64,000 nt of DNA. It comes from Curvibacter sp. PAE-UM. GTDB taxonomy: Bacteria; Pseudomonadota; Gammaproteobacteria; Burkholderiales; Burkholderiaceae_C. The position numbers were made by a program, and so were the translations under genes. The DNA is taken from NCBI RefSeq assembly GCF_001432305.1, contig NZ_KQ483358.1, forward strand, positions 876,881 through 940,880, read 5' to 3'. The notes beneath the pieces were generated by a model. That model did no database searches. It saw only the letters and a list, made by a program, of their open reading frames with translations, and was not told the origin of the DNA. Positions 1 through 11,201 of this stretch are shown piece by piece (within the stretch, counting starts at the first letter, position 1; the number at the start of each line of letters is the position of its first letter).

Positions 1-2
1 TG

Positions 3-332
3 GCGCGCAAGCTCGGCATGGACGCGACGGTGCTGGCGAGCAGCGTGGCGGCGGCCCCGGTGCGCCCCCTGGGTGCAGGGCCCTACGTGGCGCTGGGCCC
101 GGTGCGTTCGGTCTTCGTGCACAGCGAGGGCGGCCTGATGGTGGACCACCAGCACCGCGTGCTGGGTGCCGACGGCCAGCCCGTGAGTGGACTGTACGCT
201 GCGGGTTCCACCGGCCAGGGCGGCCTGCTGCTCAAGGGCCATGGCCACCACCTGGCCTGGGCCTTTGTCTCGGGCCGGCGCGCGGGCCGCCTGGCGGCCC
301 AATCCGGCACGCCCGACCGGCAGCCATCCTAG
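3..332 (+). CDS. FAD-dependent fumarate reductase/succinate dehydrogenase-like flavoprotein, C-terminal part
   Basis: The reading frame is open from the window edge, so only the last ~109 residues are present. The C-terminal pattern GLYAAGSTGQGG, followed by GHGHHLAWAFVSGRRAGR, is the usual FAD-contact end of FAD_binding_2 flavoproteins (the fumarate reductase, 3-ketosteroid dehydrogenase and tricarballylate dehydrogenase group). The substrate cannot be read from this fragment. It lies directly upstream of an SDR and tcuA and is probably part of the same catabolic locus. TcuA further down has the same fold, so the locus would carry two flavoprotein dehydrogenases. Confidence 0.75.
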   Translation, partial: ARKLGMDATVLASSVAAAPVRPLGAGPYVALGPVRSVFVHSEGGLMVDHQHRVLGADGQPVSGLYAAGSTGQGGLLLKGHGHHLAWAFVSGRRAGRLAAQSGTPDRQPS

Positions 333-430
333 CCATCACAATCTGTGATACCCCCTTGTGCCCCGACCCCTCGCCGGGGCGGGGCACAACGTATACAGTG
401 CATGCTTATCTTCTCAGCAAGGCACAGATC

Positions 431-1186
431 ATGGATTTGCAACTCAAGGACAAGACGGCGCTGGTCACCGGCGCCAGCGCAGGCATCGGCCGTGGCATCG
501 CCAAGACCCTGGCCGCCGAAGGCGTGCGTCTGGCCATCACGGCGCGCCGCGTGGACAAGCTGCGTGAAGTCGCCGCCGAGATCGTGGCCGCTGGCGGCCA
601 CGCCCCGGTGCTGATCGAGCAGGACATGTATGCCGAGGACGCCGCGAAAAATCTGGCCCGGGCCGCCATCCAGGGCCTGGGGCACGTGGACATCCTGGTC
701 AACAACGCCGGTGGTTCGCGCAGCTTCAAGGACCTGCACGTGAGCGAAGAGCAGTGGCAGGAAGCCATCACGCTGAATTTCCACCGTCCGCGCCAGCTGG
801 GCGACGCCCTGATCGACCAGATGATCGAACGCAAGTGGGGCCGCATCGTCTGCATCACGGGCAAGAGCGAGCCCGAGCACATCAACGGCGCCTTCTGCGC
901 CAAGGCCGGCATCCACAGCTGGGCCAAGGGCCTCTCGCGCATGGTGGGCCAGCACGGCATCACGGTGAACTGCGTGCCGCCCGGGCGCATCATCTCCGAG
1001 CAGATCATGCGCAACTACTCGCCCGAGTTCCAGAAGTGGCAGTGCGAGAACGAGATCCCGGTGGGCCGCTACGGTGAGCCCGAAGAGCTGGCCAATCTGG
1101 TGACCTTCCTGGCCTCGCCGCGCGCCGGCTACATCACGGGCGCGGTGATCCCGGTCGACGGCGGCCTGCGCAAGTACCAGTTCTGA
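431..1186 (+). CDS. SDR-family protein with atypical active site
   Basis: A 251-residue short-chain dehydrogenase/reductase. The Rossmann glycine motif TGASAGIG sits near residues 13-20 and NNAG is present, so NAD(P) binding is expected. The C-terminal half follows the family (HGITVNCVPPGRI, then GYITGAVIPVDGG). The expected YxxxK catalytic segment reads AFCAK: the Lys is kept but the Tyr position is Ala, and the usual upstream Ser-Ser segment reads ITGKSEP. It may therefore not be a normal dehydrogenase. The ATG at 431 starts just before the family N-terminus; the frame is open further upstream, but that part has no SDR similarity. It is likely co-transcribed with tcuAB downstream. Confidence 0.85.
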   Translation: MDLQLKDKTALVTGASAGIGRGIAKTLAAEGVRLAITARRVDKLREVAAEIVAAGGHAPVLIEQDMYAEDAAKNLARAAIQGLGHVDILVNNAGGSRSFKDLHVSEEQWQEAITLNFHRPRQLGDALIDQMIERKWGRIVCITGKSEPEHINGAFCAKAGIHSWAKGLSRMVGQHGITVNCVPPGRIISEQIMRNYSPEFQKWQCENEIPVGRYGEPEELANLVTFLASPRAGYITGAVIPVDGGLRKYQF

Positions 1187-1274
1187 ACGGAACAGGCTGA
1201 GCGCACCGCTCTCCGGCCTGCAGGGGCCCGGGGGCGGCGCATGAGTTTTCCCGAAGAGGGTTGGAGTTGTACGT

Positions 1275-2693
1275 ATGAGTCTGGACGTCCTGGTGATCGG
1301 TGGCGGCAATGCCGCCCTGTGCGCCGCCCTGATGGCCCGTGAGGCGGGTGCCAGCGTGATGCTGCTGGAGTCCGCGCCCAAAGAGTGGCGCGGCGGCAAT
1401 TCCATCCACACGCGCAACCTGCGCTGCATGCACGATGCGCCGCAGGACGTGCTGCAGGAAGCCTACCCCGAAGAAGAGTTCTGGCAGGACCTGCTCAAGG
1501 TCACCGGCGGCCTCACCAACGAGCACCTGGCCCGCCTGACCATCCGCGCTTCCTCCACCTGCCGGCCCTGGATGATCAAGCACGGTGTGCGTTTCCAGCC
1601 CTCGCTGTCGGGCACCCTGAGCCTGTCGCGCACCAACGCCTTTTTCATGGGCGGGGGCAAGGCCCTGGTCAACGCCTACTACCGCAGCGCGGAGAAACTC
1701 GGCGTACAGATCCGCTACAACGCAGCCGTGGATCGCCTGGACATCCAGGACGGGCAATTCAAGGCGGCCTACATCGGCGATGAGCGCATTGAGGCCAAGG
1801 CCTGTGTGCTGGCTGCCGGCGGTTTCGAATCCAACCGCGCCTGGCTGCGCGAGGCCTGGGGCCAGAACGCCGACGGTGAATGGCCGGCCGACAACTTCCT
1901 GATCCGCGGCACGCGTTTCAACCAGGGCGTGCTGATCAAGGACATGATGAAACACGGCGCCGACATGATCGGCGACCCCTCGCAATCGCACTGCGTGGCC
2001 ATCGACGCACGCGCGCCGGAATATGACGGCGGCATCTGCACGCGGCTGGACTGCGTCTCGCTCGGGGTGGTGGTCAACAAGCATGCCCAGCGTTTCTACG
2101 ACGAGGGCGAGGACTTCTGGCCCAAGCGTTACGCGATCTGGGGCCGGCTGGTGGCGCAGCAGCCTGGGCAGATCGGCTACTCCATCATCGACAGCAAGGC
2201 CGTGGGCCGTTTCATGCCGCCGGTGTTCCCGGGCATCCAGGCCGACAGCCTGCCCGAACTGGCACGCAAGCTGGGCCTGGACGAAGCCACCTTCATGCAG
2301 ACGATGAACGCCTACAACGCGGCCTGCCGCGTCGGCACCTTCGACCACACGGCGCTGGACGACTGCCACACCGAAGGCATCACCCCCGCCAAGACCCACT
2401 GGGCCCTGCCCATCGACACCGGGCCGTTCTACGGCTACGCGCTGCGCCCGGGCATCACCTTCACCTACCTCGGGCTCAAGGTCGACGACCGGGCCGCCGT
2501 GCATTTCGGCGGCCAGCCCAGCGACAACCTCTACGTGGCCGGCGAGATGATGGCCGGCAATGTGCTGGGCAAGGGCTACACGGCCGGTGTGGGCATGTCC
2601 ATCGGCACGGCCTTCGGCCGCATTGCCGGCACCGAGGCGGCACAGGCTGCCCTGAACATCAAGGATACGGAGAAGCAACGTGCAGCAGCTTGA
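1275..2693 (+). CDS. tcuA: FAD-dependent tricarballylate dehydrogenase TcuA
   Basis: A 472-residue flavoprotein. The N-terminal dinucleotide motif is [21 protein letters not shown], and the next segment [15 protein letters not shown] is typical of TcuA. The C-terminal FAD segment is [21 protein letters not shown]. In Salmonella, TcuA oxidises tricarballylate to cis-aconitate with FAD, and TcuB reoxidises the flavin. The length fits the family. The gene overlaps tcuB by 14 bases, so the two are probably translationally coupled. Family membership is clear; the exact tricarboxylate used here is an inference, because the surrounding genes are not those of the Salmonella tcuRABC operon. Confidence 0.88.
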
Positions 2694-3867
2694 GACTTTG
2701 ACCCGCGAGGCACGGGCCCTGGCCAACGGTGAAGTCCTGCCCGGCAGCCCGGAAGCCGAAGTGGCGCGCCAGTTGCAGATCTGCAATGCCTGCCGTTATT
2801 GCGAGGGCTTCTGCGCCGTCTTCCCGGCCATGACCCGCCGCCTGTCCTTCAATGCCGCCGACGTGCACTACCTGGCCAACCTCTGCCACAACTGCGGCGC
2901 CTGCCTGCACGCCTGCCAGTACGCGCCGCCGCACGAGTTTGCGGTCAATGTGCCGCAGGCCATGGCCAAGGTTCGGCTGCAGACCTACACGGACTTTGCC
3001 TGGCCGTCCGCGCTGGGCCAGCTCTACCAGCGCAACGGTCTCACGCTCTCCCTGGCAACGGCGGGGGCCCTGGCCTTTTTCATGATGCTGACCCTGTGGC
3101 TCAAGGACACCCTGTGGCGCGTGCCGGCCTCGGCGGACTTCTACGGCATCTTCCCGCACAACCTGCTGGTGAGCCTGTTCGCCCCGGTTTTCCTGTTGGC
3201 CGTGCTGGCCCTGTCTTTGGGATTGCGCCGTTTCTGGCGCGAGGTGACGCCGGGCCGCGACTACGAGGCCCCGGTCATTGCGGCCGTGCAGGGCGGTGCG
3301 GCGCTGGAAGCCACGCACGACGTGCTGCGCCTGAAGTACCTGGACGGCGGCCACGGCGAGGGCTGCCACAACGAGGACGATGCCTGGACGAAAAAGCGCC
3401 GTGTCTTCCACCACGCCACCTTCTACGGCTTCATGCTGTGTTTTGCCGCCACCAGCGTGGCCACGCTTTACCACTACCTCTTCGGCTGGGTTGCGCCCTA
3501 TGACCTGCCCAGCCTGCCCAAGATCCTGGGTGCCGTGGGTGGCGTGCTGCTACTGATCGGCACGGCGGGGCTGTACTGGCTCAACCTGCGGCGCCACCCG
3601 CAGCACGGTGATGCCGCGCAAAAACCCATGGACCGCGGTTTCATCGCCCTGCTGTTTTTCACCAGCCTGACCGGCCTGGGCCTGTGGGGTGCGCGCGGCA
3701 CGGCGTTCATGCCGGCCACGCTGGCCTTGCACCTGGGCTTCGTGATGGCCCTGTTCCTCACGCTGCCCTATGGCAAGTTCGCGCACGGTTTCTTCCGCAG
3801 CGCGGCCCTGCTCAAGTGGGCCATCGAAAAACGCCTGCCGAGCAAGCTCAAGGTGGGTGACGAGTAA
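2680..3867 (+). CDS. tcuB: Tricarballylate utilization membrane Fe-S protein TcuB
   Basis: A 395-residue membrane protein with a GTG start at 2680 inside the end of tcuA. Two cysteine clusters, [11 protein letters not shown] (about residues 35-45) and [11 protein letters not shown] (about 69-79), are ferredoxin-type [4Fe-4S] ligands. About six hydrophobic segments follow (starting near residues 120, 158, 250, 285, 325 and 350), with His residues that could bind haem. TcuB is known to take electrons from reduced TcuA flavin and pass them to the quinone pool at the inner membrane. Size and layout match Salmonella TcuB. The operon continues after an 80-base gap. Confidence 0.88.
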
Positions 3868-3895
3868 GAGCTCGGCGCCAAAAATTCACGATGCA

Positions 3896-3924
3896 TTGCC
3901 ACGGCGGTGCATCGGCTGTAATCT
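3896..3924 (+). promoter_or_regulatory. Possible internal promoter before the ThDP decarboxylase genes
   Basis: The 80-base gap between tcuB and the next gene holds TTGCCA (3896-3901), 17 bases, then TAATCT (3919-3924): a good -35 and a poor -10 box. An inverted repeat GATGCA/TGCATC overlaps the -35 region (from about 3890). The ribosome binding site ACAGGAG follows at about 3931-3937. This is a weak candidate only. Confidence 0.25.
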
Positions 3925-3947
3925 GAAATAAACAGGAGAGTATTGCC

Positions 3948-4487
3948 ATGGTGCAAGAGACGACCGGCCCGACCGGCGAAACCTGGGACGAGACCCTCGT
4001 CCGTGTCTTCAAGGCGAACGAGATCAAGCTCATCACCTATGTGCCCGACAAGGTGCTGGCCCCGCTGATCAAGCGCCTGCATGCCGACGACTACTTCACC
4101 GTGGTCTGCCCGGCGCGCGAGGAAGAGGCCGTGGGCATCGTGACCGGTGCCTATATGGGTGGCCTGCGCGGCATCGTGCTGATGCAGACCAGCGGTTTTG
4201 CCACCCTGCCCAACGCCCTGGCTTCGCTGACCGTGCCCTACCAGATCCCCCTGCTGATGCTGATCTCGGAGCGCGGCACCCTGGGCGACTTCCAGCTGGG
4301 CCAGGTCATCGTCTGCCGCACCATGCGCCCTATCCTGAATTCGCTCAACATCGAGAACTACGCCATCGAGCGCCAGGACGATGTCGAGTTCATCGCCGAC
4401 CGCATGATCAAACAGGCTTACGCTACCCAGGCGGCGGCTGCCATGATCCTGTCGCCGCTGCTGACCGCGCGCGTGAAGAAGAACTGA
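3948..4487 (+). CDS. ThDP-dependent decarboxylase, alpha (PYR-domain) subunit, sulfopyruvate/phosphonopyruvate decarboxylase-like
   Basis: A 179-residue stand-alone pyrimidine-binding domain of thiamine-diphosphate enzymes. The segment CPAREEEAVGIVTGAYMGG (about residues 47-65) carries the Glu that activates the ThDP pyrimidine, and MQTSGFATLPNALASL follows as in ComD and phosphonopyruvate decarboxylases. Known split relatives remove CO2 from 3-substituted pyruvates (sulfopyruvate, phosphonopyruvate) to give a substituted acetaldehyde. The beta subunit is 9 bases downstream and an aldehyde dehydrogenase follows, which fits aldehyde production. The true 2-oxoacid is unknown. Confidence 0.82.
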   Translation: MVQETTGPTGETWDETLVRVFKANEIKLITYVPDKVLAPLIKRLHADDYFTVVCPAREEEAVGIVTGAYMGGLRGIVLMQTSGFATLPNALASLTVPYQIPLLMLISERGTLGDFQLGQVIVCRTMRPILNSLNIENYAIERQDDVEFIADRMIKQAYATQAAAAMILSPLLTARVKKN

Positions 4488-4496
4488 GAGGAATAC

Positions 4497-5144
4497 ATGC
4501 AAGCTCAACTCCTCAACCCCGTGGCCCGCGAAACGGCCAAGGTCATGAACCGCTCCGACCTGACCCGTCGCCTCGTGGCCAAGCTCAAGCACGAAGAGGC
4601 CGTGGTCGGTGGTATAGGCCACACCCACTTCGACCTCTGGGCCGCCGGCCAGCGCCCGCAGAACTTCTACATGCTGGGCACCATGGGCCTGGCTGCGCCC
4701 ATCGCCGTGGGCGTGGCCCTGGCCCAGCCGCAGCGCAAGGTGTTTGCGCTCGAAGGCGACGGCTCGCTGCTGATGCAGCTGGGCACCCTGGGCACCATCG
4801 CCAACCTCAAGCTCAAGAACCTGGTCGTGATCGTCTGGGACAACGGTTCCTACCAGATCACCGGCGGCCAGCCCACGCTGACGGCCACCCATGTGGACCT
4901 GGTCGCGATCGGCAAGGGCTCGGGCCTGGTGCAGAGCGTCTGGGCCCGTGACGAGGCCCACTTCGAGGCCCTGGTCGAGGCTGCGCTCACGAGCGACGGT
5001 CCCCTCTTCATCTGCGCGCGCACCGACAACGCGCCGCCGGCCGGCGTGACCGAGCGCGATGCGGCCAAGATCCGCAACAAGTTCATGGAAGGCCTGAAGG
5101 TCAACACCCGCGGCAACCAGCAGACCTACGCCGGAGCCGCATGA
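4497..5144 (+). CDS. ThDP-dependent decarboxylase, beta (PP-domain) subunit, sulfopyruvate/phosphonopyruvate decarboxylase-like
   Basis: A 215-residue diphosphate-binding domain. It has the ThDP motif beginning EGDGSLLMQLGTLGTIANL and ending WDNGSY about 30 residues later, then ITGGQPT as in ComE and phosphonopyruvate decarboxylases. HTHFDLWAAGQRPQNFYMLG precedes it and is a usual substrate-side segment. It pairs with the alpha subunit just upstream. The stop overlaps the ATG of the aldehyde dehydrogenase (ATGA at 5141-5144), so the three genes form one translational unit. Substrate unknown. Confidence 0.83.
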   Translation: MQAQLLNPVARETAKVMNRSDLTRRLVAKLKHEEAVVGGIGHTHFDLWAAGQRPQNFYMLGTMGLAAPIAVGVALAQPQRKVFALEGDGSLLMQLGTLGTIANLKLKNLVVIVWDNGSYQITGGQPTLTATHVDLVAIGKGSGLVQSVWARDEAHFEALVEAALTSDGPLFICARTDNAPPAGVTERDAAKIRNKFMEGLKVNTRGNQQTYAGAA

Positions 5145-6556
5145 TGAAACAGCTGCTGATCGGTGGGCAGTGGGTGGCCGGTGTGTCCAGCCAGCCCCTG
5201 CGTGACAAGTACGACGGCCAGGTCTATGGCGAGATGGCCGTGGCCTCGCCCGAACAGGTCACGGCCGCCGTGGCCGGCGCCGTGGCGGGTCAGCAGCAGT
5301 CCACCCTCACGCCCTACCAGCGCTACAAGATCCTGCTGGCCGCGGCGCGCATCGTCGAGAGCCGCCTGGAGCCGCTGATCGAGCTGATGCGCCACGAGGC
5401 CGGTTTCACCCGTGCCGACGGCGACAACGAGGTGCGCCGCTGTGTGCAGACCCTCGAGCTGTGCGCCGAGGAAGCCAAGCGCCTGAACGGCGAGATGGTG
5501 CCCATGCAGGCGGCCGATGGCGTGAAGAACCGCGTGGGTTTCACCATGCGCTCGCCGCGCGGGGTGGTGTGCGTGATCACCCCCTTCAATTCGCCGCTTA
5601 ACGTGCTCATGCATAAGGTGGGTCCGGCCCTGGCTGGCGGCAATGCCGTGGTGATCAAGCCCTCGGAGTTCACGCCGCTCACCGCCGTGGAGCTCTGCAA
5701 GATCCTGATCGAGGCCGGCCTGCCGCCCACCCTGTTGGCCCTGGTGCACGGCGACGGCGCCGTGGTCGGCCCGCAGCTGTGCGCCGACCAACGCATTGCC
5801 TTCTACGCTTTCACCGGCAGCACCCGCGTGGGCCGCGAGATCCAGCGCGCCGCCGGCCTGCGCCGCACGCAGATGGAGCTGGGCAGCATCGCCAGCACCA
5901 TCGTCTGCCATGACGCCGACCAGGCCCTGGCCATTCCCAAGATCCTCAACGCGGGTTTTCGCAAGGCCGGCCAGGTCTGCACCTCGGTACAACGTCTGTA
6001 TGTGGACCGCCGTATTGCAGGTGAATTCGTGCCCAAGCTGGTGGCGGCGGCGCAGAAGATGAAGGCCGGCGACCCGGCCGATGCGGCCACCATCATCGGC
6101 CCCATGATCAGCGAACACCATGCCAAGCGCGCGCAGTCCTGGGTGGACGAGGCCGTGGCGGCCGGCGCGCGCCTGCTGACCGGCGGCCAGCGCGTGGGCA
6201 ATGTGATCCAGCCCACCATCCTGACCGGCGTGAAACCCGAGATGAAGGTGGTCTGCGAGGAGATCTTCGCGCCCGTGATGTCGGTGATCGAGTTCGACGG
6301 CATCGATGAAGCCGTGGCGCAGGCCAATGCCCAGCCCTTCGGCCTCTCGGTGGGCCTGTTCACGGCCGACCTGCACACGGCCTTCACGGCCGCCAAGGCC
6401 CTGCGTTTTGGCGGCGTGCACGTGAACGAGGCGTCCAGCGCGCGTGTGGACGCCATGCCCTTCGGCGGCGTCAAGGACAGCGGCTTCGGCTGGGAAGGCC
6501 CGGCCTATGCGATCCGCGAGATGACCGAAGAACGGCTGATGACCATCAGCTACTGA
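5141..6556 (+). CDS. NAD(P)-dependent aldehyde dehydrogenase
   Basis: A 471-residue ALDH-superfamily enzyme. Visible elements are the cofactor segment with oxyanion Asn (PFNSPLN), VVIKPSE, FTGSTRVG, the general-base Glu in MELGS (usual form ELGG), the nucleophilic Cys in GQVCTSVQR and EEIFAPV near the end. It should oxidise an aldehyde to a carboxylic acid. Its ATGA overlap with the ThDP beta subunit suggests that its aldehyde is the product of that decarboxylase. If the oxoacid were sulfopyruvate the product would be sulfoacetate, but nothing else here indicates sulfonate use. Confidence 0.88.
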   Translation: MMKQLLIGGQWVAGVSSQPLRDKYDGQVYGEMAVASPEQVTAAVAGAVAGQQQSTLTPYQRYKILLAAARIVESRLEPLIELMRHEAGFTRADGDNEVRRCVQTLELCAEEAKRLNGEMVPMQAADGVKNRVGFTMRSPRGVVCVITPFNSPLNVLMHKVGPALAGGNAVVIKPSEFTPLTAVELCKILIEAGLPPTLLALVHGDGAVVGPQLCADQRIAFYAFTGSTRVGREIQRAAGLRRTQMELGSIASTIVCHDADQALAIPKILNAGFRKAGQVCTSVQRLYVDRRIAGEFVPKLVAAAQKMKAGDPADAATIIGPMISEHHAKRAQSWVDEAVAAGARLLTGGQRVGNVIQPTILTGVKPEMKVVCEEIFAPVMSVIEFDGIDEAVAQANAQPFGLSVGLFTADLHTAFTAAKALRFGGVHVNEASSARVDAMPFGGVKDSGFGWEGPAYAIREMTEERLMTISY

Positions 6557-6576
6557 AGCTGCGATAAGCAAACACC

Positions 6577-7923
6577 ATGATCGTCGACCAACTCGCCGAG
6601 TACGCCCAGCGCGAGTCGGCCCGCCCCTTGCCCGCCGAGGTCACGCACCACGCCAAGCGCGCGCTGATCGACTGGTTCTCGGCCCTGTTCCCGGGCATCG
6701 CCCTGGCACCGGGCCCGCAGCTCATGCGCACCCATGCGGACGAGCTGGGGCACGGCAAGTCCAGCCTGCCGGGCCAGCGCACCACGGCTTTTGCGGCCAC
6801 GGCGGCCTGGATCAACGGCAGCATCTCGCACGCGGCCGAGTTCGACGACATCTTCCGTGACGCGGTCTACCACCCCGGCTGCCCCACCATCGGCGCGGCC
6901 CTGGCCGTGGCCGAGGAGCGGTCTTGCAGCGGCGCTGAGTTGCTCAAGGCCATCACCATAGGCTACGAGATCTCCACACGCATTGGCGTGGCGGTGCAGC
7001 CCTCGCACTACCGCTTTTTCCACACCACCGGCACCATCGGCTGTTTCGGCGGCGCGGCGGCCACGGCGGCCCTGGTGGACGGGACCAACCCGGACGTGAT
7101 GCGCCATGCGCTGGCGACCGCGGCGACCTTTGCCTCTGGCCTGCAGCAGGCCTTCCGTTCGGACGCCATGACCAAGTGCCTGCACGCGGGCCACGCGGCC
7201 TGGGTGGGGGTGACCGCCGGCAAGGGCGCAGCCAATGGCGTGACCGGTGCGCTCGATATTCTCGAAGGCGCCGCAGGTTTCGGCGCCGCGCTCTCGGTCA
7301 ACCCGAACTGGGCCGAGGCCACGCGGGACCTGGGCACGCGCTACAACATCCAGGTCATCACGCAGAAGAACCATGGCTGCTGCGGCCACACCTTCGCGGC
7401 CATCGACGCCATGCTGGACATCCGCCAGCTGCAGACCGTGGACCCGACGCAGATCGCGTCCATCCGCATCGACACCTACCAGACCGCACTGGACGTGACC
7501 GGCAACTTCGAGCCGCGCACCGCCTTTGAGGCCAAGTTCAGCCTGCCCTATGTGGTGGCCCATGCCCTGCTCTATGGCGCCGTGCGCCTGAACGCCTTCG
7601 AGCCGCAGCGGCTGGCCGACGCCGGCATCCGCGCGCTGATGGCCAAGACGCAACTCGTGGCCGACCCGCAGCTCAGCGCCGGTTTCCCGGCCCTGCGCGC
7701 CGCGCGCATCGTGATCACCCTGCGTGATGGCCGCGTGATCGAGCAGTACGCGCCCTGCCGCAAGGGCGACCCGGAGGCGCCGCTGAGCGACGCGGACATC
7801 AACGACAAGTTCACCGAGCTGGCCTCACCGGTCATCGGCGCCGGGGCGGCGACCCGGTTGCTGGCGCAGCTCTGGCAGATGGAGCGGCTGCAGGTCGCGG
7901 ACCTGCGCCTCACCAGTCTCTGA
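6577..7923 (+). CDS. MmgE/PrpD family protein (first copy)
   Basis: A 448-residue member of the MmgE/PrpD family, which includes 2-methylcitrate dehydratase, cis-aconitate decarboxylase and iminodisuccinate epimerase. Family segments seen are INGSISHAAEFDDIF (about residues 85-99), HPGCPTIGAALAVAE, TTGTIGCFGGAAATAAL and KNHGCCGHTFAAIDAML. It begins 20 bases after the aldehyde dehydrogenase and ends 2 bases before the next gene. Because TcuA makes cis-aconitate, an aconitate decarboxylase or dehydratase role is attractive, but the family is too broad to name the reaction. A second paralog lies at 40640-41998. Confidence 0.88.
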   Translation: MIVDQLAEYAQRESARPLPAEVTHHAKRALIDWFSALFPGIALAPGPQLMRTHADELGHGKSSLPGQRTTAFAATAAWINGSISHAAEFDDIFRDAVYHPGCPTIGAALAVAEERSCSGAELLKAITIGYEISTRIGVAVQPSHYRFFHTTGTIGCFGGAAATAALVDGTNPDVMRHALATAATFASGLQQAFRSDAMTKCLHAGHAAWVGVTAGKGAANGVTGALDILEGAAGFGAALSVNPNWAEATRDLGTRYNIQVITQKNHGCCGHTFAAIDAMLDIRQLQTVDPTQIASIRIDTYQTALDVTGNFEPRTAFEAKFSLPYVVAHALLYGAVRLNAFEPQRLADAGIRALMAKTQLVADPQLSAGFPALRAARIVITLRDGRVIEQYAPCRKGDPEAPLSDADINDKFTELASPVIGAGAATRLLAQLWQMERLQVADLRLTSL

Positions 7924-7925
7924 GC

Positions 7926-8936
7926 ATGCCCGCCAGCCTCCTGATCTCCCGGCAGATCGCCGTCGAATACCAGGCGGCCCTGGCGGAGATCCTGGCGGCG
8001 GCGCCAGGCCGGCTGGAGTTGCTGCACTTCGAGCCGGACGCTGGCTACACGGCGCAGCAGATCGCCAGCATCGAGGTGGCCTTTTATTCACGCGACATCT
8101 GGGAAGGCACGCCGGCCAAGCACCGCAGCCCGCAGGGGCAGGCCTTCTGGTCCCTGGTCGACGCGGCGTCGGGCCTCAAGTGGCTGCAGCTGGTGTCCGC
8201 CGGGCTGGACCATGCGGTCTACCAGCCCTCGAAACAACGTGGCATCCGCATCAGCACCGCCGCGGGCACCAACGCCGAGCCGGTGGCCCTGAACGCGCTG
8301 ACCGGGCTCTTGATGCTTGCGCGCGGCTTCCCGCACTGGCTGCGGGCGCAGCAGCAGCGCGAGTGGGCGCCCATCCGCGACCAGGACCTGGCGCATGACC
8401 TGGGCGGTCAGACGGCAGTGATCGTGGGCGTGGGCCACATCGGCACGCGGATTGCCCGCGGCCTGCAGGCCTTGGGGGTGCGCACCATCGGCTTGCGCCG
8501 GCAGGCGCAGCGGGCCGAGTTTTTCGACGAGGTGCTGGGCCTGGAGGCCCTTGACGGCCTGCTGCCGCGCTGCGACTGGCTGGTGCTGGCCTGCCCGCTC
8601 ACCGAGCAGACGCGCCGCCTGGTCGACGCGCGCCGCCTGGCCCTGCTGCCGCGCGGCGCGGGCCTGGTGAACATCGCCCGCGGCGAGATCGTCGACGAAG
8701 CCGCGCTGATCGAGGCGCTCACGCGTGGCCATCTGCTGGGCGCCTACCTGGACGTGTTTGCGAAAGAACCGCTGCCGCCCGAGTCCCCGCTGTGGAGCCT
8801 GCCCCATGTGCTGATGACACCGCACAGCGCCTCGGCCTCCCTGGGCACCCGCCAGCGCGGCGCCGAACTGTTCCTGCGCAATCTGCGGGCCTATCTGCAG
8901 GGCACGCCGCTGGAAAGCGAAGTTCCGCCCAGCTGA
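7926..8936 (+). CDS. D-isomer-specific 2-hydroxyacid dehydrogenase
   Basis: A 336-residue NAD(P)-dependent reductase or dehydrogenase of 2-oxo/2-hydroxy acids. It has the Rossmann motif VGVGHIGTRIARGLQALG (about residues 167-184), NIARGEIVDE with the catalytic Arg, FAKEPLPPESPLW with the Glu, and MTPHSAS with the catalytic His. The N-terminal substrate domain is divergent. It is the last gene of the locus. It could interconvert a 2-oxoacid, perhaps the ThDP enzyme's substrate, with its D-hydroxy form. It ends 13 bases from the convergent Nudix gene. Confidence 0.87.
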   Translation: MPASLLISRQIAVEYQAALAEILAAAPGRLELLHFEPDAGYTAQQIASIEVAFYSRDIWEGTPAKHRSPQGQAFWSLVDAASGLKWLQLVSAGLDHAVYQPSKQRGIRISTAAGTNAEPVALNALTGLLMLARGFPHWLRAQQQREWAPIRDQDLAHDLGGQTAVIVGVGHIGTRIARGLQALGVRTIGLRRQAQRAEFFDEVLGLEALDGLLPRCDWLVLACPLTEQTRRLVDARRLALLPRGAGLVNIARGEIVDEAALIEALTRGHLLGAYLDVFAKEPLPPESPLWSLPHVLMTPHSASASLGTRQRGAELFLRNLRAYLQGTPLESEVPPS

Positions 8937-8949
8937 GGGCCGCAGCCCG

Positions 8950-9444
8950 TCAGCGCTGCAGCAACTGCACCGTGGTGTCGGTGTAGACCGACTCCAGCGG
9001 ATAACGCTGGCCGCGCAGGTGGTCTTCCATGCAGCGCACGAGCAGGGGGCTGCGATGCCGCGCGACACTGGCGCGGATCTCCTCGGGGGTGAGCCAGAGC
9101 GTGCGCACGATGCCGGTGTCCAGTTGGCGACCCGGTTCCACCGCGCCCAGCTCGCCGGCAAAGGCAAAACGCAGGTAGGTGATGTCCTCCACGCCGCCGT
9201 CCGGCTGCGGGCGCTGGAAGCGCGACAGGTAGATGCCCAGCAGATGCGTGGGTCTGAAGCGGTGGGTGGTTTCCTCCAGCGCCTCGCGCGCGCAGCCTTC
9301 GGCGGGGGACTCGCCCGGGTCCAGGTGACCCGCCGGGTTGTTGAGTTTCAGGCCTTCGGGGGTCTCTTCCTCGACCAGCAGAAAACGGCCTTCTCGCTCG
9401 ATGATGGCGGCCACGGTGACACTCGGTTTCCAGCGCATATTCAT
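8950..9444 (-). CDS. Nudix hydrolase (NudJ-like)
   Basis: A 164-residue protein with a complete Nudix box, GHLDPGESPAEGCAREALEE (G-x5-E-x7-REx2EE, about residues 39-58), which binds Mg2+ and cleaves X-linked nucleoside diphosphates. The N-terminus (KPSVTVAAIIEREGRFLLVEE) and length resemble the NudJ phosphatase group, which acts on thiamine or nucleotide pyrophosphates. The nearby ThDP enzyme makes thiamine diphosphate a tempting substrate, but NudJ proteins are also common elsewhere. The start may be the Met at 9444 or two residues later. Confidence 0.88.
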   Translation of the reverse strand: MNMRWKPSVTVAAIIEREGRFLLVEEETPEGLKLNNPAGHLDPGESPAEGCAREALEETTHRFRPTHLLGIYLSRFQRPQPDGGVEDITYLRFAFAGELGAVEPGRQLDTGIVRTLWLTPEEIRASVARHRSPLLVRCMEDHLRGQRYPLESVYTDTTVQLLQR

Positions 9445-9593
9445 ATGCGTGCATTATGAATCGGGCCTCAAATCGTTATACCGCTTATTCCTGGGCGGAA
9501 TGGATTTCTCAGTTAAGCTTTCGTGATGTGCGGACAGCGCCCTGGGGTGGGGCCTGCTTGACCGTCATGTCTATCATGTTCAGGAGTTGATTT

Positions 9594-11201
9594 ATGCAAG
9601 CTGGCACAGCTAAACCGGCGCAGCGCATCGGCGTGCCGCGGGAGATTTTCCCGGGCGAAAAGCGCGTGGCGACGGTGCCCGAGGTGGTGGAAAAGCTCAT
9701 CAAGCTCGGTTTCACGGTGGCCGTCGAATCCGGCGCCGGTGACGCCGCCAATTTCAGCGATGACACCTATCGCGCGGCCGGCGCTGAAGTCATCAACGGC
9801 GCCGCGGCGCTGTGGGCGGCTGCTGACATCGTGTTCAAGGTGCGCGCACCGAGCAAGGACGAAGTGGCGCTTTTGCGCGAGGGCAGCGCCCTCATCGGCT
9901 TCATCTGGCCGGCTCAGAACCCGGAACTGATGCAGCAACTGGCCGCCAAAAAAGTGACGGTGCTGGCCATCGACGCGCTGCCGCGCACGCTGAGCCGCGC
10001 CCAGAAGATGGACGCCCTGACCTCCATGGCCGGCGTCAGCGGCTACCGTGCCGTCATCGAGGCGGCCAACGCCTTCGGCCGCTTCTTCAACGGCCAGATC
10101 ACGGCCGCGGGCAAGGTGCCGCCGGCCAAGGTCTTCATCGCCGGCGCCGGCGTGGCCGGCCTCGCGGCCATCGGCACCGCCGCCAGCCTGGGTGCCATCG
10201 TGCGCGCCAATGACACCCGTGCCGAAGTGGCCGACCAGGTCGTGTCCCTGGGCGGCGAGTTCGTCAAGGTCGATTACGAAGAAGAGGGCTCGGGCGGCGG
10301 CGGTTACGCCAAGGTCATGAGCGAAGGCTTCCAGCAGGCGCAGCGCGAGATGTACGCCAAGCAGGCACGCGAAGTCGACATCATCATCACCACCGCCCTG
10401 ATCCCGGGCAAGCCGGCGCCCAAGCTCATCACCGCCGAGATGGTGAAGTCCATGAAACCGGGCAGCGTGATCGTCGACATGGCGGGCGAGCAGGGCGGCA
10501 ACTGCGAACTGACCGAACCCGGCCAGGCCGTGGTGAAACACGGTGTGACCATCGTCGGCTACACGGACCTGGCCTCGCGCCTGGCCAAGCAGTCGTCGAC
10601 CCTGTACGCGACCAACCTGTTCCGCGTTGCCGAGGAACTGTGCAAGGCCAAGGACGGTGTGGCCAACGTCAACATGGAAGACGACGCCATCCGCGGCCTG
10701 ACGGTCGTCAAGGACGGCAACATCACCTGGCCGGCCCCGCCGCTCAAGCAGGCAGCAGCGCCCGCGCCGAAGCCGGCCGCTGCACCGGTGGCCGAGAAGA
10801 AGGGTGGCCACGGCCACGGCAGCAGCGCCCCGCTGCCGGCCAAGACGCTGGCCATCATCTTCGCCGTGGCGGCGCTGGCCTTCTGGTTCATCGGTGCCTA
10901 CGCGCCGGCAGCCTTCCTGGGCCACTTCACGGTCTTCGTGCTGGCCTGTTTCATCGGCTACATGGTGGTCTGGAACGTGACCCCGGCGCTGCACACGCCG
11001 CTGATGAGCGTGACCAACGCCATCTCCAGCATCATTGCCATCGGCGCGCTGGTGCAGATCCTGCCGCCGGAGGCCGGCACGGGCGGTCGCCCTGACGCGC
11101 TGATCCGCTGGCTGGCCTTTGCCGGCATCGTGCTGACGGCCGTCAACATGTTCGGTGGCTTTTCGGTCACCCGCCGCATGCTTGCCATGTTCCGCAAATA
11201 A
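9594..11201 (+). CDS. pntA: NAD(P) transhydrogenase subunit alpha
   Basis: A 535-residue PntA. The NAD(H)-binding domain I starts with [20 protein letters not shown] and has the Rossmann motif [17 protein letters not shown] (about residues 177-193). A Pro/Ala/His-rich linker (about 380-415, with GHGHGS) leads to four C-terminal membrane segments. It is the full-length enterobacterial type, not the split alpha1/alpha2 type. With PntB it couples the proton gradient to NADPH formation in the inner membrane. The SD CAGGAG lies 8 bases before the ATG. pntB follows after 20 bases. Confidence 0.96.

Follow-up and report, generated by a model that had tools for sequence, protein, structure and literature searches.

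A conserved 19-gene row around tricarballylate dehydrogenase genes in Curvibacter sp. PAE-UM, possibly converging on tricarballylate

Gene content and organisation of the row

The 64,000-nucleotide stretch of Curvibacter sp. PAE-UM analysed here (the window) starts at base 876881 of contig 1 of a 3.63 Mb assembly of four contigs. Its first genes include tcuA and tcuB, predicted to encode an FAD-dependent tricarballylate dehydrogenase and its electron-transfer partner. A preliminary description of the window had placed these in a nine-gene catabolic operon at positions 3-8936. All nine open reading frames (ORFs) were found there on the plus strand, and family searches agree with the order and the families it had named. 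The extent of the proposed operon did not hold, as the nine are the 3' part of a co-directional row of nineteen genes that is cut by the window edge, leaving only the 3' end of the gene of the flavoprotein Flav1 inside. Besides tcuAB, two groups of genes are distinguished here. Module A consists of an ATP-binding cassette (ABC) importer, a cupin, an aldehyde dehydrogenase (ALDH1), a full-length thiamine diphosphate (ThDP) enzyme, a short-chain dehydrogenase (SDR1) and Flav1. Module B consists of SDR2, a split ThDP enzyme (ThDPab), ALDH2, an MmgE/PrpD protein (PrpD) and a D-2-hydroxyacid dehydrogenase. Genomes are numbered with G and fetched loci with L, the stretch upstream of the window being L009. 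The window genes are:

3-332, plus strand: 3' end of Flav1, a second TcuA-like FAD enzyme; module A (full gene L009:17729-19213, 494 aa)
431-1186, plus strand: SDR2, short-chain dehydrogenase fold without the catalytic Tyr; module B (family search, alignment)
1275-2693, plus strand: TcuA, putative FAD-dependent tricarballylate dehydrogenase (NF006130, TIGR02485, tree)
2680-3867, plus strand: TcuB, 4Fe-4S protein, putative electron-transfer partner of TcuA (NF011607, TIGR02484)
3948-4487, plus strand: ThDP alpha (PYR) subunit, sulfopyruvate/phosphonopyruvate-decarboxylase-like; module B (TIGR03845, below cut-off)
4497-5144, plus strand: ThDP beta (PP) subunit; module B (NF004813)
5141-6556, plus strand: ALDH2, of the lactaldehyde/phosphonoacetaldehyde/sulfoacetaldehyde dehydrogenase group; module B (family searches)
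6577-7923, plus strand: MmgE/PrpD protein; module B (nearest solved structures cis-aconitate decarboxylase and iminodisuccinate epimerase)
7926-8936, plus strand: D-2-hydroxyacid dehydrogenase; module B or older tcu locus (family searches, relatives beside tcuAB)

Ten further genes on the same strand lie 5' of Flav1, reaching back to an ABC-transporter binding protein. The order is binding protein (urea/branched-chain type), LivH, LivMGF, cupin, ALDH1, full-length ThDP enzyme, SDR1, a ribose-binding-protein-like gene and two tctC-type binding proteins, followed by Flav1. From the first transporter gene to window position 8936 the row measures 22,214 bases, with a G+C content of 0.675 against 0.661 for the window past base 9600. 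A LysR gene is divergent from the first gene of the row; at the 3' end a NUDIX gene on the opposite strand is followed by the transhydrogenase genes pntA and pntB. LivM, LivG and LivF are fused in one protein of 846 residues (permease and two ATPases; L009:7871-10411), which has the same length in the sister rows. The ribose-binding-protein-like gene (L009:14867-15763) shows no signal peptide by eye and has no transporter of its own in the row. The two tctC-type binding proteins (L009:15760-17718), so labelled by eye, are 46% identical to each other, and neither tctA nor tctB is present in the row.

Tight linkage had been noted earlier. Within the window the gaps are, in order, 98, 88, -14, 80 and 9 bases, an overlap, 20 and 2 bases, so that five of eight are at most 20 bases and three are 80-98; an alternative upstream TTG start of SDR2 at 356 would narrow the first. 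Over the full row, 12 of 18 gaps are at most 25 bases, the rest being 30, 32, 80, 88, 88 and 98, with the start codons of LivH and LivMGF not fixed and the first 88-base gap possibly about 100. Three sister genomes (G410, G411, G422) carry all nineteen genes, uninterrupted by stop codons and in an unchanged order, and the linkage of the row is therefore more than chance. The combination of TcuAB with a split ThDP enzyme and an adjacent aldehyde dehydrogenase, which had been remarked on as unfamiliar, is real, unusual and co-inherited.

TcuAB and its companions in the genus

TcuA of the window scored 771.6 bits against NF006130 (cut-off 369) and 691.9 bits against TIGR02485 (cut-off 372.55), and is the sole TcuA above cut-off in its genome. 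TcuB scored 678.2 bits against NF011607 (cut-off 524) and 394 bits against TIGR02484 (cut-off 246.6). A tree of 51 rows (40 different) places the window TcuA in a 14-row clade (support 100/99) that includes TcuA of the stand-alone tcuAB loci of Comamonas antarctica and Alicycliphilus as well as two Paraburkholderia; Flav1 and a third group, Flav2, fall outside this clade. Among the 25 records listed, plasmid genes annotated as tcuA are 79-82% identical to it. By sequence, TcuA is predicted to be a tricarballylate dehydrogenase. To our knowledge, TcuAB is known solely for growth on imported tricarballylate. For TcuA, PMC10468695 gives the conversion of tricarballylate to cis-aconitate both in its text and through the title that it cites for Lewis and Escalante-Semerena (2006).

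Comparison with tcuRABC of Salmonella enterica shows the same TcuA and TcuB families and a LysR-type regulator nearby. The row differs in having no tcuC, with the ABC importer and two tctC-type binding proteins instead, and in its 17 extra genes, which include two ThDP enzymes, two ALDHs, a second flavoprotein, two SDRs, PrpD, the 2-hydroxyacid dehydrogenase and the ABC importer. The preliminary description had reported tcuAB without tcuR and tcuC. For tcuC this stands as far as the row is concerned, since the nineteen row genes and LysR were all identified by family or similarity, with no TcuC-type transporter among them; the search for TcuC covered the row alone. For tcuR a candidate is the divergent LysR gene upstream, which is 52% identical to a gene annotated as tcuR in L185.

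Across 26 genomes of the genus, that of the window included, TcuA was identified in 20, the full-length ThDP enzyme in 8 and ThDP-beta in 5, and neither ThDP gene was found in any of the six genomes without TcuA. The full-length ThDP enzyme and TcuA lie on one contig, within 7 kb, in all eight genomes that encode the former. Four states occur, mostly between mnmA and pntA, which flank the row in the window genome: neither tcuAB nor modules, tcuAB alone, tcuAB with module A, and tcuAB with both modules. The two flanking genes were located in 13 of the other 25 genomes and share one contig in 12 of these. The interval is at most 1.4 kb in G400, G401, G416 and G421 (G401 and G421 were fetched) and contains no tcuAB in G407. 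Module-free tcuAB occupies it in G399, G402, G419 and G423, with relatives of the 2-hydroxyacid dehydrogenase beside tcuAB in G402 and G419 (43 and 47%). G405 and G408 carry module A and tcuAB, without SDR2, ThDPab, ALDH2, PrpD and the 2-hydroxyacid dehydrogenase at the locus, and no ThDP-beta was found anywhere in these two genomes. In G410 the complete row lies inside a 25-kb interval. The full-length ThDP enzyme and TcuA are close together, with no ThDP-beta, in G412 and G413, whose intervals are unmapped. At a contig end of G420, a genome 85% complete, the order is SDR2-TcuA-TcuB-ThDPa-ThDPb-ALDH2, and no full-length ThDP enzyme was found. The simplest reading of this gene content is that tcuAB was there first, that modules A and B were gained next to it in separate events, and that both make use of TcuAB; since the genus shows tcuAB without modules, with A and with A and B, TcuAB would be a common end step and not the first.

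The mnmA-pntA interval as such is a variable site, ranging from about 0.8 to 25 kb in 12 genomes and holding acid-catabolic genes that differ between species.

The two ThDP modules and their other contexts

ThDP-beta belongs to NF004813 (338.5 bits, cut-off 240), a family named 'hypothetical protein' in NCBIfam. The split enzyme missed the cut-offs for sulfopyruvate decarboxylase (alpha, TIGR03845, 111 vs 147.95 bits; beta, 140.4 vs 221.5) and for phosphonopyruvate decarboxylase (TIGR03297, a model of the fused protein; alpha 69 and beta 132 vs 312.5). It resembles these enzymes, ComDE included, in its split or fused PYR and PP domains, and ALDH2 falls in a group that includes sulfo- and phosphonoacetaldehyde dehydrogenases; the split enzyme differs from them in the scores below cut-off, NF004813 membership and recurring tricarboxylate-type neighbours. 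Sulfolactate or phosphonate catabolism was rejected on these cut-offs, and no such genes were recognised in the maps of the ThDP-beta loci.

A scan for ThDP-beta over one genome per species (84,980 species) returned at least 80 loci, and the counts below refer to those 80, of which L041-L043 are from the genus of the window. Gene calling in the fetched loci relied on a basic script (longest frames, base composition, similarity) that merged or missed some genes, and presence in the 80 loci, the sister rows and the site variants was checked by tblastn at the identity thresholds given. ThDP-alpha adjoins ThDP-beta in all 80 loci. ALDH2 (at least 60%) follows 0-50 bases 3' of ThDP-beta on the same strand in 23 of the 80, 73 of which have at least 1.5 kb of sequence downstream. 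TcuA (at least 55%) was present in the fetched stretch of nine loci. Six of these are outside the genus (6/77) and span alpha- and betaproteobacteria: Paraburkholderia heleia, P. xenovorans, Tardiphaga, Xanthobacteraceae, Acetobacteraceae and a Rhodospirillales record. In L076, L098 and L120 nothing separates tcuA from ThDPab, which it abuts or faces; a LysR gene stands between them in both Paraburkholderia loci (L058, L059), and in L075 the distance is about 6 kb. PrpD (at least 45%) occurs in 12 loci. No close relative of ThDP-beta was found on plasmids (197 records, all below 60%). In 11 loci (L083-L087, L089-L091, L093, L099, L103) the split ThDP enzyme is near a gene that by eye resembles the enolase superfamily, and not near ALDH2.

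A second type of operon, ThDPa-ThDPb-ALDH2-HyuA-HyuB-RidA in that order, was identified in 12 loci (L058, L059, L061, L063, L066-L069, L074, L075, L077, L080), none of them in the genus of the window (12/77), and was not found described in the literature searched. A relative of the molybdenum-hydroxylase large subunit (at least 35%) is in the stretch of 10 of the 12, and tcuA or tcuB in four (L058, L059, L068, L075). HyuA is caprolactamase-like (469 bits, below the cut-off of 1000), and RidA acts on imino acids and enamines. This operon looks like a pathway for an N-heterocyclic carboxylate, in which lactam opening and imine hydrolysis would yield a 2-oxo acid that would then be decarboxylated and oxidised. 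With pyridine-2,4-dicarboxylate as substrate, hydroxylation, partial reduction, lactam opening by HyuAB and imine hydrolysis by RidA would give 4-carboxy-2-oxoadipate. In L045 and L055 genes for a 3-hydroxy-3-methylglutaryl-CoA (HMG-CoA) lyase (290.2 bits, cut-off 246, in L045) and for a CaiB-type CoA-transferase nearest to succinate-glutarate CoA-transferase (261 bits of 750) are 3' of ThDPab-ALDH2; in L049 the gene 3' of ThDPab-ALDH2 is aldolase-like and has one of the aconitase family close by. These contexts fit one substrate class, a 2-oxoadipate branched at C4 that would be cut to a 3-substituted glutarate; a carboxyl branch would lead to tricarballylate, and a hydroxyl plus methyl branch to 3-hydroxy-3-methylglutarate.

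SDR2 had been called an atypical short-chain dehydrogenase, and rightly so. In all 16 genomes aligned (the window's, four of the genus and eleven others) Ala replaces the catalytic Tyr of YxxxK, with the Lys kept and with the Arg in NNAGGSR and in PPGR invariant. A search of 399 genomes of the order at E 1e-55 detected SDR2 in 37; the gene is directly 5' of tcuA-tcuB in L223 and L224 (one genus; L224 from match position) and near Flav2 in L222, L226 and L228 (one family). Overall, this Tyr-less family (window 431-1186, L222-L231) is near TcuA-type flavoproteins in 5 of 10 fetched contexts. Tyr-less SDRs of the 2,4-dienoyl-CoA-reductase kind exist, and SDR2 may likewise reduce or isomerise a double bond in unsaturated polycarboxylates.

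PrpD is nearest among solved structures to Bacillus subtilis IRG1 (120 bits) and iminodisuccinate epimerase (117 bits). It is like cis-aconitate decarboxylase and the epimerase in length and fold family and keeps several aligned His and Lys positions relative to 7bra (cis-aconitate decarboxylase type) and equally to the epimerase; unlike them, it reaches no curated family, with scores of about 120 bits. Its scores are far below the 2-methylcitrate dehydratase cut-offs (61.4 vs 950, 27.3 vs 575 and 18.5 vs 458), and the 2-methylcitrate cycle was rejected on this ground. The 2-hydroxyacid dehydrogenase may have come with the older tcu locus, as its relatives are found there; an annotated 2-hydroxyacid dehydrogenase is also beside tcuAB in Comamonas antarctica.

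For Flav1 of module A the best solved relative is urocanate reductase (111 bits). Of the 399 genomes, 18 have Flav1, counting that of the window; the other 17 regions were fetched. The full-length ThDP enzyme is near Flav1 in nine of the ten regions with Flav1 of at least 60% identity, the tenth (L160) having Flav1 at a contig edge, and in none of the seven with Flav1 of 51-56%. The importer, cupin and ALDH1 also recur near Flav1, best in L164, with importer and cupin in L151. Methylobacterium nodulans (on a plasmid) and G585 carry, in this order, ALDH1, the full-length ThDP enzyme (77%), importer, cupin, sugar-epimerase-like genes, an SDR and a flavoprotein, followed by GntR, TcuA (60%) and TcuB, and the divergent LysR of M. 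nodulans is 67% identical to that of the window. Their flavoprotein scored 653 bits against an unnamed FAD-oxidoreductase model, 451 against 3-ketosteroid dehydrogenase and 441 against 4-oxocyclohexenecarboxylate dehydrogenase, all below cut-off.

Relatives of the full-length ThDP enzyme adjoin genes for dehydroquinate dehydratase II and an iolG-like protein (87 bits of 355), and a remote relative (37.5% identical) is beside iolM. The enzyme possesses a GHG motif at residue 28. Two IolD proteins have this motif too, whereas IlvB, AlsS, Gcl, 5-guanidino-2-oxopentanoate decarboxylase and SpxB do not. The His28 of cyclohexane-1,2-dione hydrolase is known here from the variant name H28A (PMC12247030). 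Because the motif is common with IolD, and from these gene contexts, cleavage of a cyclic 1,2-dione is suggested for the full-length enzyme. It is alike to the Azoarcus hydrolase and IolD in its full-length ThDP architecture and linkage to SDR and ALDH genes, and its His at residue 28 may correspond to that of the hydrolase; it differs from them in its scores, with 174.9 bits to the solved hydrolase and 274 bits vs a cut-off of 715 for IolD.

Proposed pathway, competing explanations and meaning

The row is read here as a catabolic operon converging on tricarballylate with TcuAB as the common last step, a reading to which we give a probability of about one half. Gene families and order, TcuA identity, the genus ladder and the recurring ThDP-ALDH and ThDP-tcuA pairs come straight from the sequences; all substrates and intermediates, tricarballylate and cis-aconitate excepted, are our inference. 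In the proposed end step TcuAB would convert tricarballylate to cis-aconitate, which would enter the tricarboxylic acid (TCA) cycle. In module B the D-2-hydroxyacid dehydrogenase would make a 2-oxo acid, most likely 4-carboxy-2-oxoadipate, from which the split ThDP enzyme would strip C1 as CO2, and ALDH2 would oxidise the resulting tricarballylate semialdehyde to tricarballylate; SDR2 and PrpD may adjust double bonds, hydroxyls or stereochemistry ahead of the decarboxylation. In module A the ABC importer would take up a ring acid, SDR1 and Flav1 would oxidise it, the full-length ThDP enzyme would cleave a cyclic 1,2-dione like cyclohexane-1,2-dione hydrolase or IolD, and ALDH1 would oxidise the aldehyde formed. 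Two feeders through tricarballylate semialdehyde fit because each module pairs a ThDP enzyme cleaving C-C bonds with an ALDH; ALDH1 and ALDH2 share 53% identity. Of all these steps we are least sure of the ring substrate proposed for module A, which must be regarded as doubtful. Cyclopentane-1,2-dione-4-carboxylate would lead straight to tricarballylate semialdehyde, though we make no claim that this compound occurs in nature.

Several observations weigh against this reading. No TcuA was seen in the fetched stretch of 71 of the 80 ThDP-beta loci, and among the 80 TcuA does not co-occur significantly with ALDH2 (Fisher p 0.09), RidA (0.13) or HyuA (0.33). A module is present in 9 of 20 genomes with TcuA vs none of 6 without, which is weak alone, and the 2-hydroxyacid dehydrogenase is not specific to module B, as G402 and G419 have relatives of it without the split ThDP enzyme. 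The full-length ThDP enzyme scores highest against acetolactate synthase (391 bits, cut-off 538), vs 274.1 against IolD (TIGR04377, cut-off 715). Cyclohexane-1,2-dione hydrolase is 28th among its solved-structure matches (174.9 bits) and is not among the 60 of 90 matches listed for its N-terminal 87 residues. Cleavage of a six-membered ring would give a C7 tricarboxylate needing a step like that of module B, which G405 and G408 do not have at the locus; for these two a five-membered ring or a different route would have to be assumed. The roles for SDR2, PrpD, the cupin and the orphan binding proteins are guesses. Transcription signals give no help to a single transcript either. Terminator-like matches in window 1-9600 number 11, every one of them within a gene (minus strand 6, plus strand 5), vs 4.4 (sd 2.2) in shuffles, and 12 vs 7.7 upstream. 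Sigma-70-like sites are at chance level, with none in window 1-9600 (shuffles 0.6) and one in L009:4400-19901 (shuffles 0.9), in the stretch that separates LysR from the row.

The alternative that survives best, and that we still regard as rather unlikely, is a polycarboxylate island in which tcuAB and the two modules serve different acids as independent pathways and happen to share one insertion site, with ThDPab and ALDH2 making a short acid unrelated to tricarballylate from a 2-oxo acid such as a phosphono-, sulfo- or hydroxy-pyruvate-like compound. The site may be no more than a gathering place for genes of acid catabolism, and one regulator can serve pathways that have nothing to do with each other; the breadth of the mnmA-pntA interval, with other genes in it too, agrees with this, as does ThDPab-ALDH2 beside the HMG-CoA lyase and CaiB-type CoA-transferase genes (L045, L055) and the aldolase-like gene (L049). 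The preliminary description had proposed a comparison of ThDP-beta and TcuA neighbourhoods: nine of the 80 loci hold TcuA in the fetched stretch, six of them beyond the genus, and the other 71, which favour an island, show none. Against an island stand the restriction of both ThDP genes in the genus to genomes with TcuA, ThDPab abutting or facing tcuA in L076, L098 and L120 and facing LysR-tcuAB in L058 and L059, SDR2 directly 5' of tcuAB in L223 and L224, and the missed sulfopyruvate and phosphonopyruvate decarboxylase cut-offs.

It had been suggested earlier that TcuAB acts first, PrpD then reshapes its aconitate-type product, and ThDPab and ALDH2 shorten it. PrpD is nearest to a structure of the cis-aconitate decarboxylase type (120 bits) and could take the product of TcuA, and ALDH2 is present in 9 of the 12 PrpD loci (Fisher p 0.0007). 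This order is nevertheless improbable and was not retained: four sister genomes keep module-free tcuAB at the same site, and among the 12 PrpD loci TcuA occurs solely in L042 and L043, both from the genus of the window. Since cis-aconitate is a TCA compound and needs no special enzyme afterwards, the added genes more plausibly act ahead of TcuAB. A TcuA shifted to a homologue of tricarballylate (for instance 3-carboxyadipate from six-ring cleavage), with tricarballylate no intermediate, would let module A use a six-membered ring and TcuAB without module B in G405 and G408, and is likewise given little credence in view of the 79-82% identity of the plasmid tcuA records listed and the clade shared with two stand-alone loci. 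Gallate or protocatechuate 4,5-cleavage via oxalomesaconate was rejected, no ring-cleavage dioxygenase being among the nineteen genes; related loci hold a single aldolase-like gene (L049) and a lactone-hydrolase-like gene (L062).

The preliminary description knew of no pathway using this gene set, and no description of it was found in the literature searched, most subscription journals lying outside that search. The set is real and conserved, and brings known enzyme families together around a known end step. It is conceivable, though less likely than not, that tricarballylate is a so far undescribed hub in bacteria, with alicyclic ring acids (module A) and pyridine-dicarboxylate-like N-heterocycles (the HyuAB-RidA operons with molybdenum hydroxylases) passing through ThDP enzymes to the semialdehyde, then to tricarballylate and, by way of TcuAB, as cis-aconitate to the TCA cycle. 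The genus offers a natural series of variants: no tcuAB, tcuAB, tcuAB with A, tcuAB with A and B, and probably tcuAB with B. If TcuAB also ends pathways for larger acids, the NF004813 family of split ThDP enzymes would gain a substrate class, and many ThDP-ALDH pairs of soil and water bacteria that are annotated yet unassigned would gain a testable role.

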